Positions 391-41,329 of a stretch of DNA of 41,850 bases are shown piece after piece. The number at the start of each line of letters is the position of its first letter. Position 1 is the first letter of the stretch. The DNA lies in contig JAICIO010000044.1 in NCBI GenBank assembly GCA_025924315.1, forward strand, positions 1-41,850, given 5' to 3'. Below the pieces are notes generated by a model that was not told the origin of the DNA, did no database searches, and saw only the letters and a list, made by a program, of their open reading frames with translations. Position numbers and translations under genes: made by a program. The DNA is from Phycisphaerae bacterium. GTDB lineage: Bacteria; Planctomycetota; Phycisphaerae; Tepidisphaerales; Tepidisphaeraceae.

Positions 391-2046
391 ATGGACGATT
401 CATCGCTGCTCAAAGCGTTTGCACAGGCGGGGGACGAACGCGCGTTCCGAGCGCTGGTGGACCGTCATGTCGACTTGGTGTACGCCGCGGCGCGCCGGCA
501 GGTGCGCGACGACCATCTCGCGGAAGATGTTTCACAGGCCGTTTTCATCGTGCTGGCGCGCAAGGCCGCCAGCCTGCGCGAGGGCGTCGTGCTGCCGGCA
601 TGGCTGGTGATCACGACGCGCAATGTCGCGCGCGACGTGCTTCGCGCGAGGCGACGACGGCAGCATCACGAGCAGCAGGCACAGCAGACCATGCAGACGA
701 GCACTTCTTCCGAGCACGATCCATTCGATGAAGTTTCGCCGCTGCTCGACGACGCGCTGGCGCGGCTGCGCGATGCGGATCGCGAAGCGGTGACACTTCG
801 TTATCTCAAAGGGATGCCGACGAGCGCCGTCGCGGCGGCGTTGGGGATCAGCGTCGCAGCCGCCGAGAAGCGGATCCTTCGCGCGATCGCGAAAATGCGA
901 GACTCGTTCTCGCGCCGTGGCGTGGTGCTCTCGACCGCAGTGGTGTCGGCATCGCTCGGGCAAGCAATGCAACCCGCGCCCGCGGGGGCCGCGACGCGGA
1001 TTGCAAACGGCGCCCTCGCCGCCGTTGGATCGGGGCCCGTTCAAAGTGCGTGGCGGCGCCAACGCATCCAGCGCCGAGTCATCGGCTTCGCTTCCGCGTC
1101 CGCCGCTTTGCTCCTCTTCAGCGCGTTCATCGTTGCATCCATCACGCAAAACTTCGGTCGGACATCGTCCATCGTGAGCGTGAGCGCGAATGGGAATACG
1201 CAATCGAACGATGAGCAGCAGCCGATTAAGGTAGGAGTGCTTCTTAGCGAATTTACGAAAACCGGTTGGCATACGAGGGCTGACAACCCGTGGGGCTTGG
1301 CCCGCCATCAAACGATTTATGAACGCCTGAAGCATCTGCCTCGCATCCGTCTTTACGCGATCGTCGAGCCGGGGACGAACCCCGAACTGGAGAAGGAACT
1401 TCCCGGATTGATGGAAAATGGATGGCTCCTCGACGGGAGCCAGGCGAAGGCGCTCGAAAAACTCGACGTGATCGTAGCGGACCATGACTGGCACATGCGG
1501 CCCGATGTCCTGAACGCGATGGATGAGGCCGTAAAGAACGGAGTTGGCTTTCTGCATCAGGCCGGGTTTGCGGTGCTCACGCCGTCATTCAATGATCAGG
1601 TATCGTCGATAATCGGAATGAGGGATGCGTATTGGTTTGAGCATACGGGTGATGGAGTCGCGCGCGTTGTCGCGGAACATCCTGTTTTGAAAGGTTTGAA
1701 GGTCGGCGACGAAGTCCATGGATACATGTTTTACGGCGCGATCGGGCGAATCGAGGGCACACCGCTGATTGCAGGATACGGTATGAAAGCAATGGGAGAC
1801 GGCGGATCGACGGAGTTTGCGCAGCACGTCGGTGATACAACGCATCGTCCTTCGACGGTACCTTCGTCAGCGGATTCGTTCAGTGACGGGCCGGTGTTCT
1901 GTCCGGTTTACATCAGTCAGCATGGAAAAGGTCGCGTGATCGGCTGCCAATGGCATAATGAACCGCCGGCGGAACTCGATCCGCACGACACCGGAGTGTT
2001 TTATCTCCGCTGCATCGAATGGCTGGCTGGGCGACCGGTGGAATGA
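391..2046 (+). CDS. ECF sigma factor fused to TM segment and ThuA-like domain
   Basis: A 551-residue protein. Residues 8-90 match sigma region 2 (DERAFRALVDRHVDLVYAAA, then the AEDVSQAVF segment) and 115-172 match region 4, with the helix-turn-helix around PTSAVAAALGISVAAAEKR. A single hydrophobic helix lies at about 230-252. Residues 278-551 form a separate domain ending with a GKGRVIGCQWHNEP motif and a CIEWLAG helix, which resembles the ThuA/class I glutamine amidotransferase-like fold. Such a protein could hold the sigma part in the cytoplasm with the C-terminal domain across the membrane; that is inference. Planctomycetes are known for ECF sigma factors with long C-terminal extensions. 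No anti-sigma gene is adjacent. The ATG at 391 lacks a clear Shine-Dalgarno, but no earlier start fits region 2 better. The sigma call is strong, the ThuA call moderate. Confidence 0.85.
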   Translation: MDDSSLLKAFAQAGDERAFRALVDRHVDLVYAAARRQVRDDHLAEDVSQAVFIVLARKAASLREGVVLPAWLVITTRNVARDVLRARRRRQHHEQQAQQTMQTSTSSEHDPFDEVSPLLDDALARLRDADREAVTLRYLKGMPTSAVAAALGISVAAAEKRILRAIAKMRDSFSRRGVVLSTAVVSASLGQAMQPAPAGAATRIANGALAAVGSGPVQSAWRRQRIQRRVIGFASASAALLLFSAFIVASITQNFGRTSSIVSVSANGNTQSNDEQQPIKVGVLLSEFTKTGWHTRADNPWGLARHQTIYERLKHLPRIRLYAIVEPGTNPELEKELPGLMENGWLLDGSQAKALEKLDVIVADHDWHMRPDVLNAMDEAVKNGVGFLHQAGFAVLTPSFNDQVSSIIGMRDAYWFEHTGDGVARVVAEHPVLKGLKVGDEVHGYMFYGAIGRIEGTPLIAGYGMKAMGDGGSTEFAQHVGDTTHRPSTVPSSADSFSDGPVFCPVYISQHGKGRVIGCQWHNEPPAELDPHDTGVFYLRCIEWLAGRPVE

Positions 2047-21912: not shown

Positions 21913-21999
21913 TCGCAGATCGACGTGGAAAAGGACGCGAAATCGCAAGCGGCGCGATCCGTCGCTTGCGATTTCGCGTCTGTTTATGCGAACGCACGA

Positions 22000-24900
22000 T
22001 CACGGTTTCGTTGTCGCCTCCTCCGCGCCGGATTTCTCTGTCACCATCAGGGTGTCGTCCGGCTCGAGGTAAACGTTGTGTTGACTTCCGGGCGTGAAGA
22101 CGTCGCCGATCTCGACGCTCAGCACGTTCTCGGTTTTGCCCTCAGCGTTCCTGCGAAACACGTTCGCGTATTTGCCGTCGTCGTCAGTGCCACCCGAGGC
22201 AATCAGCGCCTGACGAATCGAGATGTGCCGCCCGGTTGTTGAATAAACCCCCGGGCGTTTGATGTGCCCGCCGACGTAGTACTCACCAAGCGGCATCTTG
22301 TCGGGCACCTGGACTGCCGCACCGGCATCATGAGCCGCCGGCGGTTTCGTTTCGCTCGCGATGACCTGATCGTTGAAGTGCAAGAGCGGATCTTCCACTT
22401 TCGCGTTCATCAAATCCTCAATCGTAAAATCGCGAGCTGTCTCCGGCTGGCCGGCTTCCGAGCGGATGAGACGCACGAACTTGGCTTTGTCTTCTACTTC
22501 GGCGGCGATCAGGGCTTGTTTCAATGTAATGTTCCGAGCCGTCTTGGAGTAAACGCCTTCGCGCTTCACCGCGCCCATGACGTAGTATTCGCCCGCGCGT
22601 TGCTGTTCGTCTGCAGATTTGCCGCTCGGTTGTGTGCTCGCTTTCGCATCATCTCCCGCCTTCGATCCCAGCGGATGCACCCCGACATCACTGACATATT
22701 TGAACGACAGCTGACTCGCCAACTGCATTCCGCGACCAACAGCCTCCTGATGCTGCTTGAGCGTCATCTGATCCGACGCCACCGCGACCTCGAGCACCAG
22801 ATCCCCCCGGTTCGGCAGCTTCGCCAGCTCTTCCTTCGCCTTGTCCCACGTCGTCTCTTTCCCTTCGAGCGTCATCTTCTCCGGCCCGACGACGATGCGA
22901 ACCGCTCGATACAGGGGCTGCGTCGCGGGGTGTTGCTCGGAGTAGCGTCGCAGCGCCATCCGCTGCTCGATTGTGAGATTTCGCATCCCCTCTGGTGTGT
23001 AGTGCTTCGTCGGGTCGAAGGGCTCCTCGGGCGCGGGGACGGGGGCTGAGGTGGGAAGCTGGAGATCTCGCGAAAGTGATTCGATCAGCTTTGTCAGCCG
23101 AACCACATTCGGATTATTGTCGTTCACTCCCTGCGATTTCAAATCCTCAAGGTCCAGCTGCGCGTGCACGAGTCGGTCCCGAAGCGCGGCGTTGAGCGCT
23201 TTCGTAAAATCACTTGTTGCAGCCCCACCAGCCTCCGCCTCCGCCGCGGCGCTGATCGTGATCACGCTCTGATCGACTGTGTACCCAAGCTTCACATTGC
23301 TCCCCCCGGCGGATTGAAGCACCATGTCGAGCACTTTGCCGAAGCTGACATTGCGCACACGCAGCGTCACCGGCTCGTTCTTATCGATCCCGGCGGCCTC
23401 AAGCGACTTCCAGTTCACAAAGATATTGGCATTGGTCACATCACGAAGGAAATCGATCACATCCCCGAGGGCGACCGCGTCGAAATTGGCTTCCGGCAGC
23501 TCTTTGTCGAGCAAGGCTTTGGTCTGCACATCAATCAAGGGCGGGGCTTTTGGGACGTCGGGGAGTTTGCTCGGCGCGTTCCCAACATCATTCGCGGGAA
23601 CGTTCCCGCTCGTGCCGACGATCACCATGTCCTTCGGATGAATCACCACGTTGTATTTCAAGTCGCCGCTGGTCAGTTCTTTCAGCGGAACCTGGATGTA
23701 GCGCGGGTCGGCATCCTTGTCGGATGATTTGCGGATGATCGTCGCGGTTTGCGGGGAATCGGTCAGCCCGCCGGCCGTCACTAGCGCATCGAGCAAGCGG
23801 GTCTCGCTTGGCGAGAGGGCGTATTCACCCGCCCGCGCGACATTCCCCAGGATGCTGAAGGTCCGCCCGCGCGCTTCGACGATGCTGACCGCCACCTGCG
23901 GATTGTGGATGATCGATTTGTCCGCGTACGCCTTCGCGATCGACTTCTCGAGCTCGCTCTCGGTCATCCCCGCGGCCTTCACGCGGCCAAGATACGGCAG
24001 CGGAATCTCGCCCTTGTCGCTGACGCGCTCCTGCTTCACCGTCTCGACGCCGGCGCCGGTCAATTCCATGATCGAGACCTGCACGAGATCGCTGGGTTCA
24101 ATCCGATACTCGGTCTTCTCCGCGACCAAATCCTCCGGTCGCACCGCCGCGGAGCGCGTCGTCGTGCTGGACCGCGAGTTGTCTGCGATGGGTTGAGTTG
24201 GAGCAGGGTTTGCGTCGCGAACGATCGGCTGCGGCGCGACGATCATATCCCCGCCGTGAATCACGATATTCACCTTCGGATCCCCAGCCATCAGCTGCTT
24301 CGTCGGTACTTCGATGATTCGCTTACCGCCGGCGACCGAAGGATCGTCGCGAATTACCGAGATCGTTTCCGGCGACCCCGTCAAACCCTTGGCGAGTACA
24401 AGCGCATCAAGCAGGCGAAAGTCGTTTTGCAGAATTGCGTACTGACCCGGATCATGCACGGCCTCCGAGATAATGAATGTTCTGGAGCGCGCCTCGAGAA
24501 CGCTCACCGTGACCTTTGGTTTTTGAGGAAGCTTCTGGCCCTCGTACGCTTTGGCGATTGCCTTTTCGAGATCGGCCGCGGTCGATCCGGCGGCTTTGAT
24601 CGAGCCGACGAGCGGAAGCGAGATACTGCCCTCCTGGTTCACGCGCATGTTCTTAACCGTCTCCTGTCCATCGCTCTTTAGACCGATGGTCGAGACGCTG
24701 ACAAGGTCCCCTGAACCGATGGAGTATTCGTTGGTCGACGCGATCAGATCGGCCGGTCGAATGTTTGAAGCCGTAGTGGTAGATGGCTTCGTCGCGGCTT
24801 CCGCTTCCTCCGCCTTCGCCTTGTGCTGCGCGACGATTAATGGAACAAGCGCGACGATCACGACGACGATCGCAGCGGTGAGGGACCAATTGCGCTGTCG

Positions 24901-25851
24901 CGGGGTTTGCACGCCGAGAAGTCTTCGCACGCGCGGAAGAAGTGAGCCACCTCTGGCTGCTAATACAAGCTCGCCGGGCACCATTCGCAGCTCTTCCATC
25001 GCGGCGAGCGCCTGGACGTACGCGACGCGGTTGCCGCAGACGGTGGCGGCGAGATCGTCGCAGCAGTTCTCGCGCTCCTGGCGGATGCGCTTCGAGAGCC
25101 ACCACGCGGCGGGGTGATAGAACAGCAGCGTTTCGATCACGATCTGCAGGAGGTTCACCAGATAATCGTGCCGTCGAACATGCGCGAGCTCGTGGGCGAT
25201 CAGGCCTTCGAGTTGCTGAGGTGAGAGACCGGCCATTACGCAGGCGGGAAGCAGAATGATCGGTTTGAGATATCCGATGACCGATGGCACCTGCACGAGC
25301 GCTGATTCCGCGATCGCGACGGCGCGCTTCACGTGAAGGCATTCGCATACGCGTGACATCAGCGCATCCCACGGCTCGCCAGTGAGCCGCGTCGCGCCGT
25401 TACGCAGTTGCTGCACGCGCATCCATCCGCCGACGTGACGGATCGAGATCACCGCGATGCCGATGATCCAAAACGCGGCGCATGCGGGAAGAAGTTGCTG
25501 CAACTTCTGCGCGAGCGTCAGTGGCGGTTGATTCTGAATCACGGGCGCGACGTGGATCGGCGTAACCATCACAGCCGCTGCTCGCATGATCGGTTGATCG
25601 GTCGGGGCGACGACGTCCGGCCGCAGGATTGGTCCGGGCAGCACGAAGAACGTCACAATGGGCGCGGCGAGCATCAGCAACAGTGCAGCACAGGCGACGA
25701 CATAGCGCGATTGGGATGATCGACGCCCGAGCATCACCAGCGCGATCGCGACGACGAATGCGACCGCGGCGCCCTGCCAGATCGAGTGCACGAGCGTCCA
25801 GCCCAGCCGCTGAAAGATCGGATGAACGAGCAGTTCATTGAGCGTGTTCAT
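22000..25851 (-). CDS. M56 (BlaR1/MecR1-type) membrane protease fused to Poly_export/SLBB modules
   Basis: 1283 residues. The N-terminal 345 residues are a BlaR1-type unit: membrane helices at about 23-42, 50-71 and 122-139, the gluzincin motif HELAH (220-224) with RRHDY after it, RQERENCCDD near 258-266, and a last helix at 322-341. The usual penicillin-binding sensor is absent. Instead the periplasmic part has two Poly_export/SLBB copies (about 374-540 and 581-745; YSIGSGDLVSVS and YRIEPSDLVQVS), a secretin-like short domain (about 776-868), a helical stretch, then two SLBB-like repeats (EYYVMGAVKREGVYS at 1088 and EYYVGGHIKRPGVYS at 1189). It starts 2 bases after the blaI stop, so the two are co-transcribed. 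Expected to cleave BlaI on a periplasmic signal; the SLBB part as sensor is inference. Confidence 0.88.
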   Translation of the reverse strand: MNTLNELLVHPIFQRLGWTLVHSIWQGAAVAFVVAIALVMLGRRSSQSRYVVACAALLLMLAAPIVTFFVLPGPILRPDVVAPTDQPIMRAAAVMVTPIHVAPVIQNQPPLTLAQKLQQLLPACAAFWIIGIAVISIRHVGGWMRVQQLRNGATRLTGEPWDALMSRVCECLHVKRAVAIAESALVQVPSVIGYLKPIILLPACVMAGLSPQQLEGLIAHELAHVRRHDYLVNLLQIVIETLLFYHPAAWWLSKRIRQERENCCDDLAATVCGNRVAYVQALAAMEELRMVPGELVLAARGGSLLPRVRRLLGVQTPRQRNWSLTAAIVVVIVALVPLIVAQHKAKAEEAEAATKPSTTTASNIRPADLIASTNEYSIGSGDLVSVSTIGLKSDGQETVKNMRVNQEGSISLPLVGSIKAAGSTAADLEKAIAKAYEGQKLPQKPKVTVSVLEARSRTFIISEAVHDPGQYAILQNDFRLLDALVLAKGLTGSPETISVIRDDPSVAGGKRIIEVPTKQLMAGDPKVNIVIHGGDMIVAPQPIVRDANPAPTQPIADNSRSSTTTRSAAVRPEDLVAEKTEYRIEPSDLVQVSIMELTGAGVETVKQERVSDKGEIPLPYLGRVKAAGMTESELEKSIAKAYADKSIIHNPQVAVSIVEARGRTFSILGNVARAGEYALSPSETRLLDALVTAGGLTDSPQTATIIRKSSDKDADPRYIQVPLKELTSGDLKYNVVIHPKDMVIVGTSGNVPANDVGNAPSKLPDVPKAPPLIDVQTKALLDKELPEANFDAVALGDVIDFLRDVTNANIFVNWKSLEAAGIDKNEPVTLRVRNVSFGKVLDMVLQSAGGSNVKLGYTVDQSVITISAAAEAEAGGAATSDFTKALNAALRDRLVHAQLDLEDLKSQGVNDNNPNVVRLTKLIESLSRDLQLPTSAPVPAPEEPFDPTKHYTPEGMRNLTIEQRMALRRYSEQHPATQPLYRAVRIVVGPEKMTLEGKETTWDKAKEELAKLPNRGDLVLEVAVASDQMTLKQHQEAVGRGMQLASQLSFKYVSDVGVHPLGSKAGDDAKASTQPSGKSADEQQRAGEYYVMGAVKREGVYSKTARNITLKQALIAAEVEDKAKFVRLIRSEAGQPETARDFTIEDLMNAKVEDPLLHFNDQVIASETKPPAAHDAGAAVQVPDKMPLGEYYVGGHIKRPGVYSTTGRHISIRQALIASGGTDDDGKYANVFRRNAEGKTENVLSVEIGDVFTPGSQHNVYLEPDDTLMVTEKSGAEEATTKP

Positions 25852-25853
25852 GA

Positions 25854-26249
25854 CTATCCCCGTTTGGATGAGTTGTGGTTCGCTTCGTCGATGAGCTTGC
25901 GGATTTCCTTGAGCTCCTGCGGGCTCGTGCGAGCGGCCGACAACGCCTGCATCACCAGTTGCTTGGCCGAACCACCAAACGCGCGGTCGAGTAGATCTTT
26001 GACGAGCTGCTTCTGCGTCGATTGCTGCGAGGGCTTCGCGGTATAGACGTGGCTCCGCTGCGATTCATCGCGCTCGAGGAGGCCCTTCTCGTGCATGATC
26101 TGCATGAACTTCAGCACGGTGGTGTAGCCCGTCTTGCGATCGGCGTTCAGCGCATCGTGCACCTCGCGAACGGTGGAAGGCCCGCGATCCCAGAGCACGC
26201 GAAGAATGGCGAGTTCGCTGTCGGTCGGACGTGGCGGTTCGGTTGGCAT
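25854..26249 (-). CDS. blaI: BlaI/MecI-family transcriptional repressor
   Basis: 131 residues of the usual family length. PTDSELAILRVLWDRGPSTVREVHDAL is the start of the winged helix, GYTTVLKFMQIMHEKGLLERD its recognition helix and following strand, and HVYTA the wing; the C-terminal part (QKQLVKDLLDRAFGGSAKQLV) is the dimerisation domain where BlaR1-type proteases cut. It would repress its own operon by binding the operators at 26259-26299 until cleaved by the M56 protein encoded just downstream. The gene is minus-strand and sits between the serine hydrolase gene and the protease gene. No strong Shine-Dalgarno precedes ATG 26249. Confidence 0.92.
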   Translation of the reverse strand: MPTEPPRPTDSELAILRVLWDRGPSTVREVHDALNADRKTGYTTVLKFMQIMHEKGLLERDESQRSHVYTAKPSQQSTQKQLVKDLLDRAFGGSAKQLVMQALSAARTSPQELKEIRKLIDEANHNSSKRG

Positions 26250-26255
26250 GGCGTT

Positions 26256-26299
26256 GTTCTACGAATGCGTTCGTAGGTTGTCAACGAAAATCTTCGTAG
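26256..26299 (-). promoter_or_regulatory. blaI promoter with two tandem BlaI-type operators
   Basis: Two operators with the same spacing: CTACGAA-N4-TTCGTAG at 26259-26276 (arms perfect) and CAACGAA-N4-TTCGTAG at 26282-26299 (6 of 7 pairs), 23 bases apart from start to start. On the minus strand a consensus TTGACA (26279-26284) and TAGAAC (26256-26261) are 17 bases apart. The first operator covers the spacer and part of the -10; the second overlaps part of the -35. BlaI bound here would block polymerase directly. Confidence 0.8.
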
Positions 26300-26307
26300 A
26301 AAGAAAG

Positions 26308-26419
26308 GGAACCACAGATGGAACACGGATGAACACAGATAAAAAGAGAGATGAGAGGGGAGAAAAGAAGCACTCTCTTTCCTTTTCATCTGTGTTAATC
26401 TGTGTTCATCTGTGGTTCC
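26308..26419. repeat. Intergenic palindrome of ACACAGAT-type units
   Basis: GGAACCACAGATG at 26308-26320 pairs with CATCTGTGGTTCC at the right end, with inner arms of GAACACAGAT and ATCTGTGTT units around an A/G-rich loop. It overlaps the 3' end of the serine hydrolase gene (stop at 26395) and lies just upstream of the blaI operators. Confidence 0.7.
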
Positions 26420-27504
26420 AAGTCTTTGTAAATCGCGTTGTTGATTGAGGTTTGGCGTGCTTGATGCTTTTCTTCGCCGGGCATCCCGTTGCAGACCCAC
26501 GCGACGACGAGCTTTCTTTCCGGATCGGCGAAGGCGCAGCTGCTTTGCGATCCACTGTGGCCGAAGGTGTCGGCGCCGGCACGGTCGCCGTAGCTGTAGG
26601 GAATCGCGCCGTACTGCTTTGAGTTGATGAGAAACCCAAGCCCCCAGTCGATCGTTTGCTTGAATGTCTCGTCGAACATTCCGACGCGCTGCCGGCTTGT
26701 GATGAGCCGCACTTGCTCGGCGGAGACGACGTTCGCGGGCAGTGCGTCGTCTCCTTCAAGTCGCTTCGCCAGAAGCATCTCGTAAAACTTGCCGAGCTCG
26801 CGAATCGGTCCGCGTCCGTTGCCGCTGGGGCGGACGATCGCGGCGTCCTCTTCGCTGTCGCCGGGGGCGGCGCTGACGATTGTGCCACTTGTATTCGTCA
26901 TCAGTGCGATGCGATCACCGTACGCGCGGTATTGCTCCGGCGGAATGCCGATCCAGGAATTGCGCATGCCGATCGGCAGGAAGATCGCTTCACGAATGTA
27001 TTGGTCGAAGGGTCGACCGTCGCGGCGATGCACGATCTCCGCGAGCAGGTACCAGCTCGCGACGGGGTGATAGCCCGCCTTTTGTCCCGGCGGCCAGTTC
27101 GGTTCGGGCCGCGCGTTGATGAGCTTCTCGATCGCCACATCGAACGAATCGCGACGGCTGACATTCACTGCGCGCAGCGGCGAGGTGTGCGTGAGAACGT
27201 GGCGGATCGTGATCTCGTCCTTCCCCTTCGTTGCGAATTCCGGAATGTGATCCGCGATTCGATCGTCGTACGAAACCAGGCCGCGATCGACGAGCTGCGC
27301 GACCGCGACGGCGGTCACCGGCTTGACGGATGACATCCACAGATTGATCGAGTTGATCGACATCGCCACGCCGGGCCGCGCTTCGCCCAGCGCAAAGTCC
27401 GCCAGTGTTTCTCCGTCGCGCGAGACATAGAGCTGCGCGCCGGCGTGGAGACCTTCCGCGATTCCTTCTTCGAGCACCGATCGAGTGCGGGACCAGTCGT
27501 TCAT
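26395..27504 (-). CDS. Beta-lactamase-family serine hydrolase (class C/esterase-like)
   Basis: 369 residues from ATG 27504 (MNDWSRTRSVLEEG). The SxxK motif Ser58-Ser-Val-Lys61 lies in NLWMSSVKPVTA, a tyrosine motif YHP at 145-147 stands in the Y-x-N position, and FGHSGSQSS gives an HSG in the place of KTG, as in R61-type DD-peptidases and EstB-like esterases. Hence it may be a carboxylesterase, a DD-peptidase or a beta-lactamase. No signal peptide is apparent. It lies upstream of blaI and the M56 gene in the same direction, as in bla loci, though a palindrome separates it and it probably has its own promoter. The last residues (LEPQMNTD) and stop come from the palindrome at 26308-26419. Confidence 0.85.
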   Translation of the reverse strand: MNDWSRTRSVLEEGIAEGLHAGAQLYVSRDGETLADFALGEARPGVAMSINSINLWMSSVKPVTAVAVAQLVDRGLVSYDDRIADHIPEFATKGKDEITIRHVLTHTSPLRAVNVSRRDSFDVAIEKLINARPEPNWPPGQKAGYHPVASWYLLAEIVHRRDGRPFDQYIREAIFLPIGMRNSWIGIPPEQYRAYGDRIALMTNTSGTIVSAAPGDSEEDAAIVRPSGNGRGPIRELGKFYEMLLAKRLEGDDALPANVVSAEQVRLITSRQRVGMFDETFKQTIDWGLGFLINSKQYGAIPYSYGDRAGADTFGHSGSQSSCAFADPERKLVVAWVCNGMPGEEKHQARQTSINNAIYKDLEPQMNTD

Positions 27505-27714
27505 GCGAATTCCATTTAACCAGACGGACGGGAATGCTACGATAGGCACGGCCCCGGCAGGGTCAGGAGCGAATGGCCATCAGGTGTTGCCACCACACGC
27601 CTAGCGAAGGTGATTCGGCAGCTACCCATCTGAAAATTCGTACTCCACCTCGGTCCTGCTACGGGGCCTCGAAATTCGATTTGCGAAAACCGCAAATCCA
27701 AAAACCGGCAGCGC

Positions 27715-28803: not shown

Positions 28804-30792
28804 ATGAGCAGGCTCGATCAACATGTGGCGGGGGTGCAGAACAAGTTGGCTCTTGGGCGGTTTGTGCATGCGCTGGCGTGGACGACGCTCGGCGTGGCGG
28901 GGGCGGTGCTCGTGGGTGTTTTGGTTTTTGAGATTGCGCAGATCTATCCGCCGAAGCCGGTGATCTGGATGAGCTCGGCATTGGCCGTGGCGGCGATCGT
29001 GGCGCTGGTTTGGGCGATTATGCGCCGGCCGTCGAAATATGATGCCGCGGTGGCGATCGACGAGCGGCTTGGTTTGAAGGAGAAGTTCAGCACGGCGCTG
29101 TACATTCGAAGCAATGACGACCCATTTGCCGCGGCCGCGGTGCGCGACGCGGAGCAGACGGCTCAGAACGTCAGCCTTCACAAGCGTTTTCCCCTCGAGT
29201 TTCCGCGACTGTTTTTGATCACGGTTGTCATCGGATTGCTGGCCCTGCTCATCTACTCGTGCATGTCGCCGATGGATCTGCTCGGGCGCGAGGCGCACCA
29301 GAAGCTCATCGCGAAGCAAATGACCGAGCAGGAGCACGCCAAGGCGCAGGTCGAGAAAGCGCTGGCGGTGGTGAACGCGGTGCCGAAGGCGGCGCAAGCG
29401 GACGACGCGATCCGCAATGCCAAGATCGATCTGCAGGCCTTGCTCAACAATCCGATCAAGGATCCGGGCTACGCGAATCGGTCGGCCAAAAAGGCGCTCG
29501 ATCAGGTCGCCGAGGCCCTCTCCAAGCAGATGGAGACGAACCACGAGATGGTCGACGCGCAGAACAGCGCGAAGATGTTCCGCTCGGTGAATCCGAATTC
29601 GAATGAAACCGGTCCGGTGGCGGACGCGCAGCGCGCGATCGCGGAAGGAGATTATTCGAAGGCCGTCGAGCAGCTGAAGAACGCGGTCAACAAGTTCGAC
29701 AAAATGGACGACAAGGAGCAGAAGAAGGCTGCTCAGCAGATGAGTAATCTGGCACAGCAGCTTCAGCAGATGGCGCAGAATCCGCAGGTGCAGAAGCAAG
29801 TCCAGCAGCAGATGCAGAAGATGGGTCTGACCCAGCAGCAGCAACAGCAGATGATGAAGAACATGCAGGCGGCCGCGCAGGGCAACCAGCAGGCGGCCCA
29901 GCAGCTGCAGCAGCAGGCTCAGCAGATGATGCAGCAGATGAACAACGGGCAGGGCCCGACTCAGCAGCAACAGCAGCAGATCCAGCAGATGATGCAGCAG
30001 ATGCAGGCGCAGATGAACAATCAGGCGCAGGCACAGCAGATGGCGCAGGCCGCCCAGAAGATGGCGCAGGCGATGCAGCAGGCGAGCGCGCAGCAGCAAG
30101 GCCAGCAGGGACAGCAAGGCCAGCAACAGCAGCAGGCGAGCGGGCAGAACCAGTCGCAGGGACAGAAGGGTCAATCCGGACAGCAGCAAGGACAGCAGCA
30201 ACAGGCGAACGCTCAGCAGGGCCAGGGCCAGCAAGGTCAGCAACAGGGCCAGCAGGGACAACAAGGCGGCAGCCAGGGCATGCAGGATGCCATGAGCCAG
30301 ATGCAGCAGCAGCTGGATCAGATGGACGCGATGGCCAAGGACGCGCAGGCGATGGCAGACGCGCAGCAAGGCGCGCTGGACGCCGCCGAGGATGCCGGCG
30401 ATCAGCTGAACGACGGCGATCAGAACAGCAAGGGCGACAAAGTTCGCTACAGCAAGAGCACCGGCAAGTGGAAGGCCGGCGACATCAACGGAAAAGGCGA
30501 AGGCATGGGCGGACCCGGCCGCGGCGCGGGTGGCCAGGCATCGCGCGAGAACGCGCCGTTCGCGGTGAAGCACGAGAACGCGCCGTCGGTCGACAACGGA
30601 AAGGGCCGCATCCTCGCGAGCTCGCTCATCAAGGACAACGCGCCCAAGGGCGAAGCGAAGGCCGAGCTGCAGAACGTCATGCAAGCCGCCGAGAAAGACG
30701 CCGCCGACGAAGTCGAAGAAGATCGCGTGTCACGTCAGGCGCGCAACGTCGTGCAGGAATATTTCCAGACGACAACGGACGACGGGAAGTAA
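28804..30792 (+). CDS. Glutamine-rich membrane protein in a MoxR/VWA-type cluster
   Basis: 662 residues; ATG 28804 follows a perfect GGAGGT. Membrane helices at about 25-46, 54-73 and 134-153. Residues 160-300 are helical and charged. From about 304 to 495 the sequence is extreme low complexity, mostly Gln with Met, Ala and Gly (QQMQKMG, GQQGQQGQQQQQ), written largely with CAG codons. The tail (500-662) is charged with Gly-rich parts. I do not recognise an enzyme domain; the layout is like the Gln-rich or DUF4175-like membrane proteins near Bat/MoxR genes. The antisense strand is open over this whole region as a leucine-rich frame, an artefact of the CAG runs. A 225-base gap before it shows no gene. 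Confidence 0.7.
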   Translation: MSRLDQHVAGVQNKLALGRFVHALAWTTLGVAGAVLVGVLVFEIAQIYPPKPVIWMSSALAVAAIVALVWAIMRRPSKYDAAVAIDERLGLKEKFSTALYIRSNDDPFAAAAVRDAEQTAQNVSLHKRFPLEFPRLFLITVVIGLLALLIYSCMSPMDLLGREAHQKLIAKQMTEQEHAKAQVEKALAVVNAVPKAAQADDAIRNAKIDLQALLNNPIKDPGYANRSAKKALDQVAEALSKQMETNHEMVDAQNSAKMFRSVNPNSNETGPVADAQRAIAEGDYSKAVEQLKNAVNKFDKMDDKEQKKAAQQMSNLAQQLQQMAQNPQVQKQVQQQMQKMGLTQQQQQQMMKNMQAAAQGNQQAAQQLQQQAQQMMQQMNNGQGPTQQQQQQIQQMMQQMQAQMNNQAQAQQMAQAAQKMAQAMQQASAQQQGQQGQQGQQQQQASGQNQSQGQKGQSGQQQGQQQQANAQQGQGQQGQQQGQQGQQGGSQGMQDAMSQMQQQLDQMDAMAKDAQAMADAQQGALDAAEDAGDQLNDGDQNSKGDKVRYSKSTGKWKAGDINGKGEGMGGPGRGAGGQASRENAPFAVKHENAPSVDNGKGRILASSLIKDNAPKGEAKAELQNVMQAAEKDAADEVEEDRVSRQARNVVQEYFQTTTDDGK

Positions 30793-34754: not shown

Positions 34755-34837
34755 TTGTCCACGAATGGACACGAATGAACACGAATAAGGAAGAACTCCG
34801 AATCCATTCGTGAAGATTCGTGTCCATTCGTGGACAA
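34755..34837. repeat. Palindrome of ACGAATGAAC-type units
   Basis: Perfect 22-bp arms at 34755-34776 and 34816-34837, made of ACGAATGGAC, ACGAATGAAC and ACGAAT units in tandem. It starts 7 bases after the permease-NHL stop. The GTG at 34820, a possible start of the next gene, lies inside its right arm. Confidence 0.75.
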
Positions 34838-34846
34838 AAAAAGAAT

Positions 34847-37800
34847 TTGGATTCGTTCGATTTCATCCTCGCCTTCGCGAACCCCATCAAGCTGGAGTAC
34901 TTCTCCGGCTGGCTGGCTTTGGGCATCTTTGTCGCGTGCGCGATTCCGATCGTGCTGCTGGGGATGCGGTCGCTTTCGGGGTTGGGGCCGGTTCGGAAAT
35001 GGGTCGCGATTGTTGCGCGGTTGCTCGTCTTGCTGCTATTCGTGCTCATCATCGGCGGGATTCGGTGGCAGCGGCAGAACAAGATCGTTGAGGTGATGGC
35101 GATCCGTGACGTGAGCCAGTCGACGATGGAGGTTCACGATTATCCGGGCAAGTCGCTGCAGCAATCGATCGACGATGAACTGCAGACCGCCACGAAGGCG
35201 CCGGACAAAGAGCCGGACGATCGCATCGGTCAGGTGAGTTTCAGCAATACGCCGCAGATCGATGACGTGCCGAACATCACGCTGCGGCAGGACACGCACG
35301 CGATTCGCGCCGCCGGCAACGGCACCGACGCCGCGGCGGCGATTCAGCTGGCGCTGGCGACCATGAGCAAGGACGCGATGCATCGCCTGCTGCTCTTCTG
35401 GGACGGCAATGCGACCGCGGGCAACATTGACGAAGCCGTCGCTGCCGCCGCTTCTCAGCATGTTCCCATCGACGTCTTTCCTCTCAGGTACGACATCCAG
35501 CATGAAGTGATGGTCGATCACTTCGTCGCGCCGACGTGGAAGCGCGAAAACGAGCCGTTCACGCTCGACGTGTACCTTAAATCGACCAACGCGCTGCCGG
35601 TGCAGGGCAAGCTCTCCGTCCTGCACAACGACGCGCCGATGGATCTCGACGCCAGCACGCCCGGCGTGCAGGCGACGCGCATTGTCACGCTGCAGCCGGG
35701 GACCAATCACGAGCGCGTCTATGTTCCGGCGCTCCAGGCCTTCGGCATTCACCAGTTCAAAGCGATCTTCGAAGGCGAAAACGTCAGCGCCGAAGTCGGC
35801 CAGCAACCCAAGCCCGGGGAAACGCCAAAGCAAGGCGACACGCTGCTCGACAACAACACCGCCAGCGCGTTCACCTACGTGAAGGGCAAAGGCAAGATCC
35901 TCTACATCGACAACAGCCCGGATCAGCGCGGCGTGATGCTGCGGCAGGCCCTGCAGCGCGCGGAGATCGAGCTCGACAACGAACGCACCGGCGTCGATCA
36001 GTTCCCCGCCAGCCTGATGGAGCTGCAGAACTACGACGCGATCATCCTCGGCAACGTCCCGCGCGGCGCTGGCGGCCTCTCCGACGATCAGCAGAAGATG
36101 CTCGCGGCGTATGTGCACGATCTCGGCGGCGGGCTGTTGATGATCGGCGGCGAAGACACCTTCGGCGCCGGCGGGTGGCAGGGCTCAAAGCTCGAAGAAG
36201 TGTTGCCGGTGAACATGGAGATTCCCGCCCAGCGCGTGATCCCCAAAGGCGCGCTCGTGCTCGTGATGCACAGCTGCGAAATGCCGGACGGCAACTTCTG
36301 GGGCATGCAGTGCGCGTTGAAGGCCGTCGAGACGCTCAGCTCGCGCGATGAAGTCGGCGTGATCACGTTCGGTTGGAACGGCGGGATGAGCAATTGGGAT
36401 TACCCGCTGAGCGAAAAGGGCGACGGCTCGCGCGTGAACGCCGCCATCAAGAACATGCAGGTCGGCGATATGCCGAGCTTCGACGACTCGCTTAACGTCG
36501 CGATGAACGGCATCAATGGGCAAGGCGGGCTCGTGCGCTCGGACGCGCGGCAGAAGCACGTGATCGTCGTCTCGGATGGTGACCCCGCCATGCCGAGCGA
36601 CAAGCTGATGGATCAGTATAAGCAGCAGAAGGTGACGATCTCGACCGTCACGATCTACACCCACACACCCGGCACGCCCAGCCCGCAGATGCAGGCGATG
36701 GCCAAACGCACCGGCGGACGCGTCTACGGCCCGATCGAATCGAACCCTGGGCAGCTCCCGCAAATCTTCATCAAAGAAGCGCGCGTCGTGCGACGCTCGA
36801 TGATCTATGAGGAAACGAAACCGCCGTACATCCCTCTGCGGCGCACGCCCACCAGCAGCGACATGATGAAGGGCCTGCCTGGCGATCTCCCCGCGATCAG
36901 CGGCATGGTCCTCACCAGCCGCAAGCCCAATCCGCAGGTCGAAGTGCCGATCCTCGGCGGGAAGAACAATGATCCCGTCTTCGCACATTGGCAAACCGGT
37001 CTCGGTCGCGCCGCCGTGTGGACGAGCGACGCCTACAACCGCTGGGGTTTCCAGTGGGCCGGGAGCCCACTTTACGACAAGTTCTGGACGCAGGTGGTGC
37101 GCGGCGTCGCGCGTCCGCCGATGAGCACCGACTTTGAAGTGCAGACCACGCAAGTCGGCGACAAGGGGAAAATTACTGTCGAAGCGACGAACAAGGACGA
37201 CGCGTTCCTCAACTTCCTCAGCATCAATGGCGCCGTCGTCGGCCCCGACAACAAGCCGCTGCCGGTTCGCCTCGTGCAGACAGGCCCCGGCACCTACGAA
37301 GGCGAGTTCGATGCGAAAGAGCCGGGCACCTATGCGGCGTCGCTCAGTTACAAGAGCCCGAAAGGCGCCGCGGGGCTGATCGTTTCCGGCATGGCGGTGA
37401 ACGCATCGCCCGAACTGCGCGATCTCAAGAGCAACGAAGCCCTCCTCAAGCAAATCGCGGAGCGCACCGGCGGGCGCTATTATGATCAGCCGTGGCAACA
37501 AGCGACCGCGGGCCTCTTCACGCGCGAAGGACTGCAACCCAGCGCGTCCCCGCTGCCGATCTGGGACATCATGATCCCGATCCTGCTCGCGCTGATCATC
37601 ATCGACATCGCCATTCGCCGAATCGCCTGGGACTGGCAGAGCACCAAGCGCCTGGTCGCCGCCGCCGGTGAACAGATCCGCATGTACACCACGCAGCGCA
37701 AGGTCGAAAGCGCCCCGACGCTCGACGCGCTCAAAAAAGTGCGCGGCGAAGTCGCGGAAACCAAATTCAAAGTCGCGGAAGAGGGAGCACCGTCGCAGCG

Positions 37801-38014
37801 CCCAAATCCGAAAGCCAAGTTCGAAGCCAAGGAAGGCGTCGAAGGCGACATCAGCAAAGTGGTGGGCGGCGCCAGCGACAAACCGATCCCGCCCGCTCCA
37901 AAAGGCAAAGAACCCAAAGGCGGCGTCCCCGAGCAAGGCCATACGAGCAGCCTGCTCGAAGCCAAACGCCGCGCGCAGCAAAAGATGAGAGAACGAGAAC
38001 AAGGAGACCAGTAA
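34847..38014 (+). CDS. VWA/GATase-like membrane protein, copy A
   Basis: 1055 residues from TTG 34847, chosen because it lines up with the start of the neighbouring paralog; GTG 34820 is in frame but inside the palindrome. Helices at 22-41 and 53-71, then a first von Willebrand A-like domain with a DVSQS MIDAS (Asp88-Ser92), a beta-rich spacer, a glutamine-amidotransferase-like region (GGGLLMIGGEDTFGAGGW), a second VWA-like region, and a C-terminal helix near 904-925 followed by a cytoplasmic-type tail ending in SLLEAKRRAQQKM. In the second VWA region the MIDAS DxSxS is replaced by H475-S-C-E-M, so metal binding there is doubtful. MIDAS-type VWA proteins act with MoxR ATPases in assembly or maturation of envelope complexes. 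Confidence 0.87.
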   Translation: MDSFDFILAFANPIKLEYFSGWLALGIFVACAIPIVLLGMRSLSGLGPVRKWVAIVARLLVLLLFVLIIGGIRWQRQNKIVEVMAIRDVSQSTMEVHDYPGKSLQQSIDDELQTATKAPDKEPDDRIGQVSFSNTPQIDDVPNITLRQDTHAIRAAGNGTDAAAAIQLALATMSKDAMHRLLLFWDGNATAGNIDEAVAAAASQHVPIDVFPLRYDIQHEVMVDHFVAPTWKRENEPFTLDVYLKSTNALPVQGKLSVLHNDAPMDLDASTPGVQATRIVTLQPGTNHERVYVPALQAFGIHQFKAIFEGENVSAEVGQQPKPGETPKQGDTLLDNNTASAFTYVKGKGKILYIDNSPDQRGVMLRQALQRAEIELDNERTGVDQFPASLMELQNYDAIILGNVPRGAGGLSDDQQKMLAAYVHDLGGGLLMIGGEDTFGAGGWQGSKLEEVLPVNMEIPAQRVIPKGALVLVMHSCEMPDGNFWGMQCALKAVETLSSRDEVGVITFGWNGGMSNWDYPLSEKGDGSRVNAAIKNMQVGDMPSFDDSLNVAMNGINGQGGLVRSDARQKHVIVVSDGDPAMPSDKLMDQYKQQKVTISTVTIYTHTPGTPSPQMQAMAKRTGGRVYGPIESNPGQLPQIFIKEARVVRRSMIYEETKPPYIPLRRTPTSSDMMKGLPGDLPAISGMVLTSRKPNPQVEVPILGGKNNDPVFAHWQTGLGRAAVWTSDAYNRWGFQWAGSPLYDKFWTQVVRGVARPPMSTDFEVQTTQVGDKGKITVEATNKDDAFLNFLSINGAVVGPDNKPLPVRLVQTGPGTYEGEFDAKEPGTYAASLSYKSPKGAAGLIVSGMAVNASPELRDLKSNEALLKQIAERTGGRYYDQPWQQATAGLFTREGLQPSASPLPIWDIMIPILLALIIIDIAIRRIAWDWQSTKRLVAAAGEQIRMYTTQRKVESAPTLDALKKVRGEVAETKFKVAEEGAPSQRPNPKAKFEAKEGVEGDISKVVGGASDKPIPPAPKGKEPKGGVPEQGHTSSLLEAKRRAQQKMREREQGDQ

Positions 38015-38257: not shown

Positions 38258-41200
38258 GTGACACCGGCAGCGACAACCATCTTCGATCGACTCGCCTTTC
38301 CGCTGCGGCTGGAATACCTCTCCGTGCCGGCGGCGCTGGGGATCTTCTGCGCGCTGGCGGGGATGGTCGTTTACACCGGATCGAAGTCCCTGCGATGGCT
38401 CGGCCCGACGCGGCAGTGGGTCGCCATCGGTGTTCGATTGTGCGTGATCTGGTTCGTCGTTCTCCTGCTCGCGGGGGCGCATTGGCAGCAGCGCAACAAA
38501 GACGTCGAAGTGATGGTGCTGCGCGACGTTTCCGCCTCCACAAATGCGGCCGGCGATTCCAACGGCGAAAAGTTCGACGACTTCCTTCAGCATGCCGCCA
38601 AGAACAAGCCCGCCGGCGATCGCATCGGCGTCGTGGGTTTCGATTCTCAGGCGATGATCGACGCGATGCCCGACACGTCGCTTCATAAAGATCAGGGCCA
38701 CGCCCAGCACTCCGCCGCCGACGGAACCGACATCGCCGGCGCCATCCAGACCGGCCTCGCGTCATTCCACAGCGACGCGATGAAACGCCTCGTCTTGATC
38801 AGCGATGGCAACGCCACGCAAGGCGCCACCGACGACGCCCTCTCCGCGGCGGCGTCGCTTCACATCCCCATCGACGTCATCCCAATGACCTATCGCATCG
38901 CGAAAGAAGTGATGGTCGAGCGCATCGCCTCACCCACGAGCACGCGCGAGGGCGAACCGTTTTCGATCGACGTATACGTGAAATCGACGAGCGCCTTTCG
39001 GGTTCCGGGCCGATTGAGCGTGACCGATCAGGATGCGCCCCTCGATCTCGATCCGAACACACCCGGTGTGCAGGCGTCAATCCCGGTCGAGCTCGCGCCC
39101 GGCACGAATTCGTTCCGCGTGAAAGTGCCACCGTCGCAAGGCAGCGGAATTCACCTCTTCCGCGCCAGCTTCATCGCCGACAACGCGAGCGACGATCAAC
39201 TCGCCGGCAACAACGTCGCCGAGTCCTTCACGTTCGTCCGTGGACACGGGCAAATTCTTTACGTCGATAACACGGGCACGCCCACGACGGGTTCAGCACT
39301 GATCGACGCGCTGAAATCACAGGGCATCGACATCTCCGCCGATAACCACATTCGCCCGGATCAGTTCCCCTCGCGGTTGGTGGATCTACAACCTTACGAT
39401 GCGGTGATCCTCGCGAATGTTTCGATCGGCGCCGGCGGACTCACCGCGCAGCAGGATCGGATTCTCTCGCAGTATGTGCACGAACTCGGCGGCGGATTGC
39501 TTGTGATTGGCGGGCCGGACACGCTTGGCGCCGGCAACTGGCAGGGCAGCGAGTTGGAAAAAGTCGTGCCGGTGAACATGGAAATCCCCGCCGAGCGCGT
39601 CCTGCCCGCGGGGGCGATCGTGCTCGTGCTCGACCACTCCGGCTCAATGTCCGGCCCGATGCCCGGCGCGCCCGAGATCAGCAAGCAGCAGATCGCCAAC
39701 GAGTCCGCCATTCTTTCGCTGCAGACCCTTCAGCGCGACGACTGGCTCGGCATGATCGCGTTCGACGATCAGCCGACGTGGGTCATCGGCCTCGGCCCGA
39801 ATCACGACGCCGCGCTGAATGAAAGGCGCATCCGCTCGATCGCGCCCGCGGGTGGAACCGCGATCGTCCCCGCGCTCGACGCCGCGTGCGATGCGCTCGC
39901 GAAACTTTCACCCAAAGATGTCGCGTCGAAGCGCATCCTCCTCATGACCGACGGCCAGAGTGAGCCCGGAAACTTCGAAGCGTCGATGAAGCGAGTCCGC
40001 GCGGCAAAGATCACGGTCTCGACCATCGCCGTCGGCGCCGATGCCGATCGCCCGCTGCTCGCGCGCATTGCGCAAGCGAGCGGAGGCGCCGCGTACAGCG
40101 TCGATTCACCGAAACAGCTCACGCAGGTTTTTGTGCGCGAAGCGCGTACGCTTCGCCGCCAGCTCATCAGCGAACCGCCGGCGGGAATCATCGTCGCGCA
40201 AACACACGCGGCCGATCAGCTGATTCAGGGCCTCGCGGGCGAATCGCTTCCGCTGCTCAACGGCATGGTGCTCACGAGCGTGAAGCCGAGCCCACTCGTC
40301 AACACCGCGCTCGTGACGCCGAATCGCTACCGCGATCCGATCCTCTCCGAATGGCAATCCGGCCTAGGGCGCGCCGCGGTGTTCACCGCGGACGCCACCA
40401 AGCGCTGGGCGCCACAGTGGGTCGCCTCGCCCATGTTCGGCAAGTTCTGGGCGCAGCTTCTTCGCACCGTCGAGCGGCCGGCGATGAGCAATGATTTTGA
40501 AGTGCAGACCGTGCGCGAGGGCAATCGCACGCGCCTGATCGTCGAGGCGACCGATCGCGTTGGTGATGCAATTAACTTTTATACCTTCGCCGGTCGCGTC
40601 GCCGGACCGCGCGACACGCCGCCGGAAGATCTCGCGCTCGTGCAGACGGGACCCGGGCGGTATGAAACAACGTTCGATTCGCACGAGCCCGGCGGCCACG
40701 TCGCGGGCATACAATTCAGCGGGCCAAACGGCCAGCGCGGCTCGCTGCTGGCGGGCGTTTCGACTCAGTCGTCGATCGAGCTTCGCGACCTGCAGAGCAA
40801 CGATGCCCAGCTGGCCGACATCGCCAATCGCACCGGCGGGCGATTGCTGCCGTCGTTTGAGCATGGCGCCGCGATGGCGAACCTTTTCACGCGCGACGGG
40901 TTGTCCGAATCGACCAGTTCCCGGCCGATTACTGATGGCTTGCTCATCACGGTCGTGACGATGATCCTGATCGACGTTGCAGTCCGGCGCATCGCGTGGG
41001 ACTGGAAGCACATGAAGCAGATGGCGTTCGCGGGCATGACATACGTTCGCAGTTACACAACCGCCCCGCAGGCGCAGCCGGCGCGGACGCTGGAGAGTTT
41101 GAAGAAAGTGCACGAAGGCATCGCCACAACCACGACCGCGAAGACAACGCCAAATATCCTGGCAAGCGGCTTCGCAGCGCCCGCGGCGGCGAGCGTTTTG

Positions 41201-41329
41201 CGCGACGCGCCGAAGCCCGAGCCCGAGCGTGAAACGCGGCGATCGTTCCACACGGGTGGATTGCTCGAAGCGAAGCGTCGCGCGCAACAGCACATTACCG
41301 ACATGACGAACGATCCGAAGCAGCAGTAG
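38258..41329 (+). CDS. VWA/GATase-like membrane protein, copy B
   Basis: 1023 residues from GTG 38258, directly after the nested palindrome, without a clear Shine-Dalgarno. The domain order repeats copy A: two N-terminal helices (about 23-41, 53-71), a VWA domain with DVSAS (Asp90-Ser94), a beta-rich middle, a GATase-like region (GGGLLVIGGPDTLGAGNW), a second VWA domain and a C-terminal helix with a tail ending in GLLEAKRRAQQHI. Here the second MIDAS is intact, D459-H-S-G-S463, followed by ILLMTDGQSEPG, a canonical metal-ion site. It is a tandem duplicate, and the intact copy probably does the ligand binding. Next to MoxR it suggests a MoxR-VWA module in the inner membrane or periplasm. Confidence 0.88.
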   Translation: MTPAATTIFDRLAFPLRLEYLSVPAALGIFCALAGMVVYTGSKSLRWLGPTRQWVAIGVRLCVIWFVVLLLAGAHWQQRNKDVEVMVLRDVSASTNAAGDSNGEKFDDFLQHAAKNKPAGDRIGVVGFDSQAMIDAMPDTSLHKDQGHAQHSAADGTDIAGAIQTGLASFHSDAMKRLVLISDGNATQGATDDALSAAASLHIPIDVIPMTYRIAKEVMVERIASPTSTREGEPFSIDVYVKSTSAFRVPGRLSVTDQDAPLDLDPNTPGVQASIPVELAPGTNSFRVKVPPSQGSGIHLFRASFIADNASDDQLAGNNVAESFTFVRGHGQILYVDNTGTPTTGSALIDALKSQGIDISADNHIRPDQFPSRLVDLQPYDAVILANVSIGAGGLTAQQDRILSQYVHELGGGLLVIGGPDTLGAGNWQGSELEKVVPVNMEIPAERVLPAGAIVLVLDHSGSMSGPMPGAPEISKQQIANESAILSLQTLQRDDWLGMIAFDDQPTWVIGLGPNHDAALNERRIRSIAPAGGTAIVPALDAACDALAKLSPKDVASKRILLMTDGQSEPGNFEASMKRVRAAKITVSTIAVGADADRPLLARIAQASGGAAYSVDSPKQLTQVFVREARTLRRQLISEPPAGIIVAQTHAADQLIQGLAGESLPLLNGMVLTSVKPSPLVNTALVTPNRYRDPILSEWQSGLGRAAVFTADATKRWAPQWVASPMFGKFWAQLLRTVERPAMSNDFEVQTVREGNRTRLIVEATDRVGDAINFYTFAGRVAGPRDTPPEDLALVQTGPGRYETTFDSHEPGGHVAGIQFSGPNGQRGSLLAGVSTQSSIELRDLQSNDAQLADIANRTGGRLLPSFEHGAAMANLFTRDGLSESTSSRPITDGLLITVVTMILIDVAVRRIAWDWKHMKQMAFAGMTYVRSYTTAPQAQPARTLESLKKVHEGIATTTTAKTTPNILASGFAAPAAASVLRDAPKPEPERETRRSFHTGGLLEAKRRAQQHITDMTNDPKQQ

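Follow-up and report, generated by a model that had tools for sequence, protein, structure and literature searches.

A BlaI-M56 protease pair with a periplasmic arm of exporter-, secretin- and ExbD/TolR-type modules in a Phycisphaerae bacterium

A gene pair of a Phycisphaerae bacterium, located in a 41,850-nucleotide stretch of one contig (the window), encodes a BlaI-type repressor and an M56 protein whose protease half is, by both sequence and fold, a complete BlaR1-type protease. In place of a penicillin-binding sensor, the M56 protein carries a modular arm of about 900 residues, C-terminal to the M56 half, with exporter-, secretin- and ExbD/TolR-type modules (Table 1). BlaR1-type proteases are, to our knowledge, known almost solely as antibiotic sensors. 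In the present pair, that combination of protease and repressor is joined to components of export and envelope machinery, and several such pairs occur per genome. We hold with moderate confidence that the pair works as a switch like BlaI/BlaR1, but one that reads the cell envelope rather than a beta-lactam, cleaving BlaI and derepressing its own operon. If the arm senses the state of a machine or of the wall, this would be a new envelope-to-transcription route in a phylum with unusual envelopes.

Table 1. Features of the blaI-m56 locus (positions in the window; residues of the M56 protein)
Feature	Position	Strand	Basis
26-nt inverted repeat, possible shared terminator between convergent M56 and TPR gene ends	21929..21985	.	
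M56 protease with long periplasmic part	22000..25851	-	1283 aa, one frame
SLBB domain, residues 1174-1270	22042..22332	-	local profiles and SLBB_2
SLBB domain, residues 1084-1164	22360..22602	-	local profiles
ExbD/TolR-type periplasmic domain, residues 982-1060	22672..22908	-	fold (model 975-1074, 22630-22929)
STN domain, secretin-type, residues 776-868	23248..23526	-	local profiles, identity to resident secretin
Poly_export + SLBB unit 2, residues 570-745	23617..24144	-	Pfam, local profiles; PDB sequence match to Wza
Poly_export + SLBB unit 1, residues 364-538	24238..24762	-	Pfam, local profiles
Membrane helices and gluzincin-type M56 protease, residues 1-352	24796..25851	-	Pfam, model, PDB match
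E261xxxD265, equivalent of BlaR1 E242xxxD246	25057..25071	-	alignment
HELAH zinc motif, residues 220-224	25180..25194	-	alignment
BlaI-type repressor, 131 aa	25854..26249	-	Penicillinase_R 2e-28 (Pfam)
Operator dyad 1, TACGAACGCATTCGTA on - strand, nearer blaI	26260..26275	.	conservation
Operator dyad 2, TACGAAGATTTTCGTT on - strand; -35-like TTGACA over inner end	26283..26298	.	conservation

The protease half and its repressor

The M56 gene is a single ATG-started frame containing no N and no internal stop, and its codon-position GC is of the coding type from end to end, including the M56/SLBB junction. A frameshift between the two halves is thereby ruled out. An assembly artefact is likewise excluded, since independent M56-SLBB frames exist in other genomes (G001, G022), where the two parts are likewise fused rather than separate genes; these frames are 45-48% identical to the window protein across the junction.

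Residues 26-278 match Peptidase_M56 (PF05569) with an E-value of 1.3e-27 and 97.2 bits against a cut-off of 31, which bears out the protease half and HELAH motif of the preliminary description. The zinc site is complete (H220-E-L-A-H224 with E261 and D265), and the HExxH and ExxxD motifs are invariant across 42 aligned M56 domains. D229 is also kept, and the BlaR1 residues matching HELAH, D229 and E261xxxD265 have been shown to matter (PMC9834060). A structure model of the M56 half, computed with 41 homologues as input (pLDDT 87), has Staphylococcus aureus BlaR1 (8exs) as its top PDB match, with a Z-score of 19.1 over 247 aligned residues at 3.8 Å, compared with 12.3 for the second-best family. 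BlaR1 is a PDB match of the window protein by sequence as well. By analogy with BlaR1, we infer an inner-membrane protein whose zinc site lies on the cytoplasmic side.

No transpeptidase-type Pfam match was found in the window protein up to an E-value of 1, and the blaR1_generic profile reaches only 90 bits against a cut-off of 400, covering residues 123-269. The earlier reading of a BlaI/BlaR1-type pair with its penicillin sensor replaced by export-type modules stands. The pair resembles BlaR1/MecR1 with BlaI/MecI of S. aureus and B. licheniformis in its gluzincin protease, presumably of the inner membrane, with HExxH and ExxxD, in its adjoining BlaI repressor, in its promoter dyads and in having a predicted sensor part across the membrane. 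It differs in the penicillin-binding domain, which is missing, in the long arm, in the cleavage position of BlaI and in an exact operator that is confined to its own operon.

The blaI gene ends 2 bases ahead of the M56 start codon. Where the staphylococcal BlaI cleavage site has N101-F102, the window BlaI has Q101-A102, and 156 of the 181 relatives have Ala or Leu as their P1' residue. Because the P1' Phe is replaced by Ala, the cleavage site is predicted either to differ from the staphylococcal one or to lie elsewhere. BlaI of B. licheniformis also answers to a cytoplasmic peptidoglycan dipeptide (PMC3305447), and a second, wall-derived input to the window BlaI is thus conceivable by analogy.

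Modules of the periplasmic arm

Pfam recognises the two Poly_export domains (8.7e-37) and three stretches of SLBB_2 (1.2e-21) in the arm. Of the two C-terminal SLBB domains, the last lies barely above the SLBB_2 cut-off and the other under it, and both are clear with local profiles. The STN domain is under the Pfam cut-off (0.099 for the full protein and 0.0032 for the fragment alone), while residues 775-871 share 58% identity with the STN domain of the genome's own secretin. Likewise, residues 357-502 share 53% identity with the genome's own OPX protein, the gene of which adjoins an exosortase gene. In a Poly_export tree with weak forks, four domains from M56 fusions of the window's family group among the OPX proteins of that family, and the Poly_export domain of L080, which is from another family, falls outside them; an STN tree gave no resolution. 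The close counterparts in the same genome, together with these weak Poly_export forks and the unresolved STN tree, suggest that the arm domains were captured from resident machines.

Poly_export followed by SLBB is also the order in OPX proteins such as Wza and EpsE. In contrast to these, the window units are fused behind a membrane protease, have no secretory or lipoprotein start of their own and, with the C-terminus about 13 residues past the last SLBB domain, leave no space for a Wza_C helix. With secretins of type IV pili and type II secretion, the window protein shares the STN domain but not the secretin pore domain. Such a pore domain is present in an M56 relative that adjoins BlaI in G108 (L201, 3009-6071), which is fused to STN and secretin domains (PF00263, 1.2e-8).

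The exporter domains had been read as those of a possible glycan-sensing protease, in which SLBB and Poly_export would bind an exported polysaccharide or a cell-wall fragment, upon which M56 becomes active and BlaI is cleaved. SLBB was described as a beta-grasp superfamily that binds soluble ligands (PMC1796856), the arm holds four copies of SLBB and two of Poly_export, and the resident OPX gene beside an exosortase gene is consistent with exopolysaccharide export. On the other hand, STN and TolR-type domains are no parts of glycan export, and the window revealed no gene recognisable as one for polysaccharide export or polymerisation. In Wza, moreover, the Poly_export/SLBB domains form rings around the passing polymer, and we know of no role for them as high-affinity glycan receptors. 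Glycan sensing thus appears possible but doubtful.

The preliminary description had the Poly_export/SLBB units, the STN domain and the two further SLBB domains right, but overlooked the blaI operator and a module at residues 982-1060. For this module, an ExbD/TolR likeness was first suspected from the sequence pattern, before the fold test; it has no Pfam match. A single-sequence model (pLDDT 76) has the ExbD-type order of strands and helices, and its top three Foldseek matches in the PDB are 8p9r (ExbD), 8pek (ExbD) and 5by4 (TolR), with E-values of 0.004-0.04 and probabilities of 1.00-0.95. Realignment (VIA) gave a Z-score of 8.3 with ExbD over 70-72 residues and a second of 7.4; a Z-score near 8 can reflect a common arrangement, and the weight rests on the agreement of the top matches and on the prior expectation. 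By hhalign, the module reached a probability of 15% against ExbD profiles compared with 0.2-0.4% for controls, the sequence similarity not being significant. PDB profile matches of the module to a short repeat protein and to sigma factors made no sense and were settled by the fold. Unlike ExbD and TolR, the module lacks an N-terminal helix of the ExbD type and is fused to M56.

Of the 397 class genomes, 12 have the ExbD/TolR-type module. In seven of these (G000, G003, G020, G022, G047, G108 and G366), one frame holds both the module and a profile-found M56 domain, and in two others (G109, with four module copies, and G138) the module frame matches an earlier M56 match in length and contig. The remaining three genomes (G111, G264 and G318) have it in proteins without M56. 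The G109 frame (L364, on C107) is 2431 residues long, with an M56 match and four ExbD/TolR-like repeats. Several close M56 relatives have the module too, and it possibly predates the exporter domains. The periplasmic domains of ExbD and TolR contact peptidoglycan (PMC10771500), and the module is at least as suggestive of contact with peptidoglycan, or with a trans-envelope machine, as of a soluble glycan.

Operator and distribution of the pairs

Upstream of blaI, on the - strand, the sequence TACGAAGATTTTCGTTGACAACCTACGAACGCATTCGTA comprises a pair of 6-4-6 dyads, and a -35-like TTGACA overlaps the upstream one (dyad 2 in Table 1) at its inner end. This tandem layout around TTGA(C) also precedes blaI in G001, G022, G003 and G020, and an altered form of it precedes blaI at L080 and L206. 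In the whole 6.57-Mb draft genome, WACGAAN4TTCGTW occurs just at the two window dyads. Tandem patterns of the same design number 20 in the 397 class genomes, as found with a slightly narrower spacer that excludes the window's own site, and a reversed-pattern control gave 0. Eighteen of the 20 lie directly before BlaI-M56; of the other two, one precedes a BlaI-M56 operon in G114 and the last sits at a contig end. In the G114 operon (L355, 2321-9165), BlaI and an M56 protein of 1336 aa come after two pseudopilin-like genes and a third gene, all behind the tandem operator, a layout in which pilin-type genes are tied to a switch of this kind.

Other BlaI-M56 pairs of the window's genome have other dyads (GACGAA-type, TACTAT-N4-ATAGTA and TTCTAA-N4-TTAGAA), and a dyad was looked for at one further pair with none found. 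These differing dyads suggest that the pairs are separate, self-regulating channels. A wider regulon was considered and dismissed: about 16 single ACGAAN4TTCGT sites occur in the genome, and the inspected ones, which do not include C150 and C237, are nearly all intragenic. The single site at C25 lies within an unrelated intergenic palindrome, and that at C122 in the promoter of a BlaI-M56 paralogue. An exact-motif search of the draft genome revealed no dedicated target gene beyond the blaI-m56 operon; further targets could be hidden by contig gaps or lie under looser sites.

A serine hydrolase gene of the class C beta-lactamase/LipE type (26395-27549, - strand; PF00144, 5.6e-59) lies just upstream of blaI and would be an attractive candidate for a bla-type target. 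A shared operon was rejected, the operator separating the two genes; no operator was seen upstream of the hydrolase, and no hydrolase homologue at the other collected loci. Between the two genes lies an intergenic palindromic repeat (26310-26418, CACAGATGGAACACGGATGAACACAGAT ... ATCTGTGTTAATCTGTGTTCATCTGTGG) that resembles a dispersed intergenic repeat.

The protein could alternatively be an effector and not a sensor, namely a component that, anchored in the inner membrane, serves mainly in the structure or assembly of an export machine and whose amount is tuned by BlaI/M56. The confinement of the exact operator to its own promoter would fit, as would tandem operators that lead only into BlaI-M56 operons, the two pseudopilin-like genes in the G114 operon and the redoxin or secretin domains on other M56 proteins. 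We nevertheless regard this as unlikely, as the protease motifs are intact, a purely structural part needs no adjoining BlaI, and there is no room after the last SLBB domain for a Wza_C-type helix.

BlaI is directly upstream in 159 of the 211 distinct M56 frames collected. SLBB or Poly_export domains are borne by six of the 211, from five genera and three families, each adjoining BlaI. Four are from the window's family (the window, G001, where BlaI lies inside an over-extended start of the M56 frame, G022 and G010), and two from two other families (G045 and G108). A marginal SLBB match in the M56 protein of L011 (E-value of 0.004) would be a seventh case. A class-wide junction-spanning profile, which is blind to rearranged fusions, recovered only its four training fusions, and the rearranged fusions L080 and L206 were found only by whole-frame scans. 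A contig scan with generic HExxH patterns gave no new SLBB fusion among the matches listed.

In a quick M56 tree, the window protein, G022 and G001 cluster with M56 proteins that have the TolR-like module but lack exporter units (fork support of 88), and L080, L206 and L052 are placed elsewhere. Independent origins of the M56-SLBB fusions are likely, short of proof, since in a label test the well-supported branches do not require more than one origin.

A scan of 52 M56 proteins showed CarboxypepD (11), LRR (3), secretin (3), Poly_export (3) and HEAT (2) domains in their periplasmic parts, and further fusion partners in these genomes are STN, STN with secretin, TolR-like and redoxin domains. 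One paralogue in the window's genome (L049, 2362-6555, on C45) combines CarboxypepD_reg repeats with an AhpC/TSA redoxin domain at its C-terminus. Since M56 proteins swap so many kinds of periplasmic part, the window protein is a striking member of a modular M56 family, and the term "undescribed system" applied to it earlier was an overstatement. The literature, accessible to us in part, yielded no paper that links BlaR1 to SLBB, and none that brings M56, BlaI and planctomycetes together.

The extreme diversity of M56 C-terminal parts and the rarity of M56-SLBB fusions might also be explained by neutral shuffling, with M56 tails swapping and decaying freely and the SLBB/STN/TolR string lacking a specific function. 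This is very improbable: each arm domain is of full length, in frame and of coding-type composition, G022 retains the M56-SLBB-TolR order at 41-48% identity, and the operators are conserved.

A possible envelope-reading switch

In the switch that we propose, BlaI would repress its own operon by binding to the pair of palindromes placed in tandem around the -35 box, an operator defined by conservation. The M56 half would be inactive until the periplasmic arm changes state. The arm would touch peptidoglycan through its TolR-type module, the rings or partners of a polysaccharide exporter or secretin, or both. Loss or alteration of this contact would activate the M56 protease, which would cleave BlaI and derepress blaI-m56. 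As the exact operator is found only before blaI-m56, the switch may serve mainly to raise the amount of its own sensor protein, possibly along with the products of genes under looser sites.

Contact sensing is favoured over the sensing of a soluble glycan, by analogy, because the arm parts all come from trans-envelope machines or wall-contact proteins. Machine parts are no general rule, though, as other M56 proteins here carry LRR, CarboxypepD, HEAT and redoxin domains. SLBB domains of other proteins bind small ligands, so ligand binding by the arm is also possible (PMC1796856). More tentatively, and with low confidence, a whole family of BlaI-M56 switches could monitor trans-envelope machines through copies of their periplasmic domains (exporter, secretin and Tol motor), with a private variant of the operator insulating each switch, which would be chiefly self-regulating.

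Elsewhere in the window, two neighbouring proteins of 1000 residues with VWA and GATase1-like domains (34820-38014 and 38258-41329, + strand) are encoded downstream of a DUF4175-like gene at 28804. A 551-residue frame at 391-2046 (+ strand) starts with ECF-type sigma factor regions, which are followed by a long C-terminal part.
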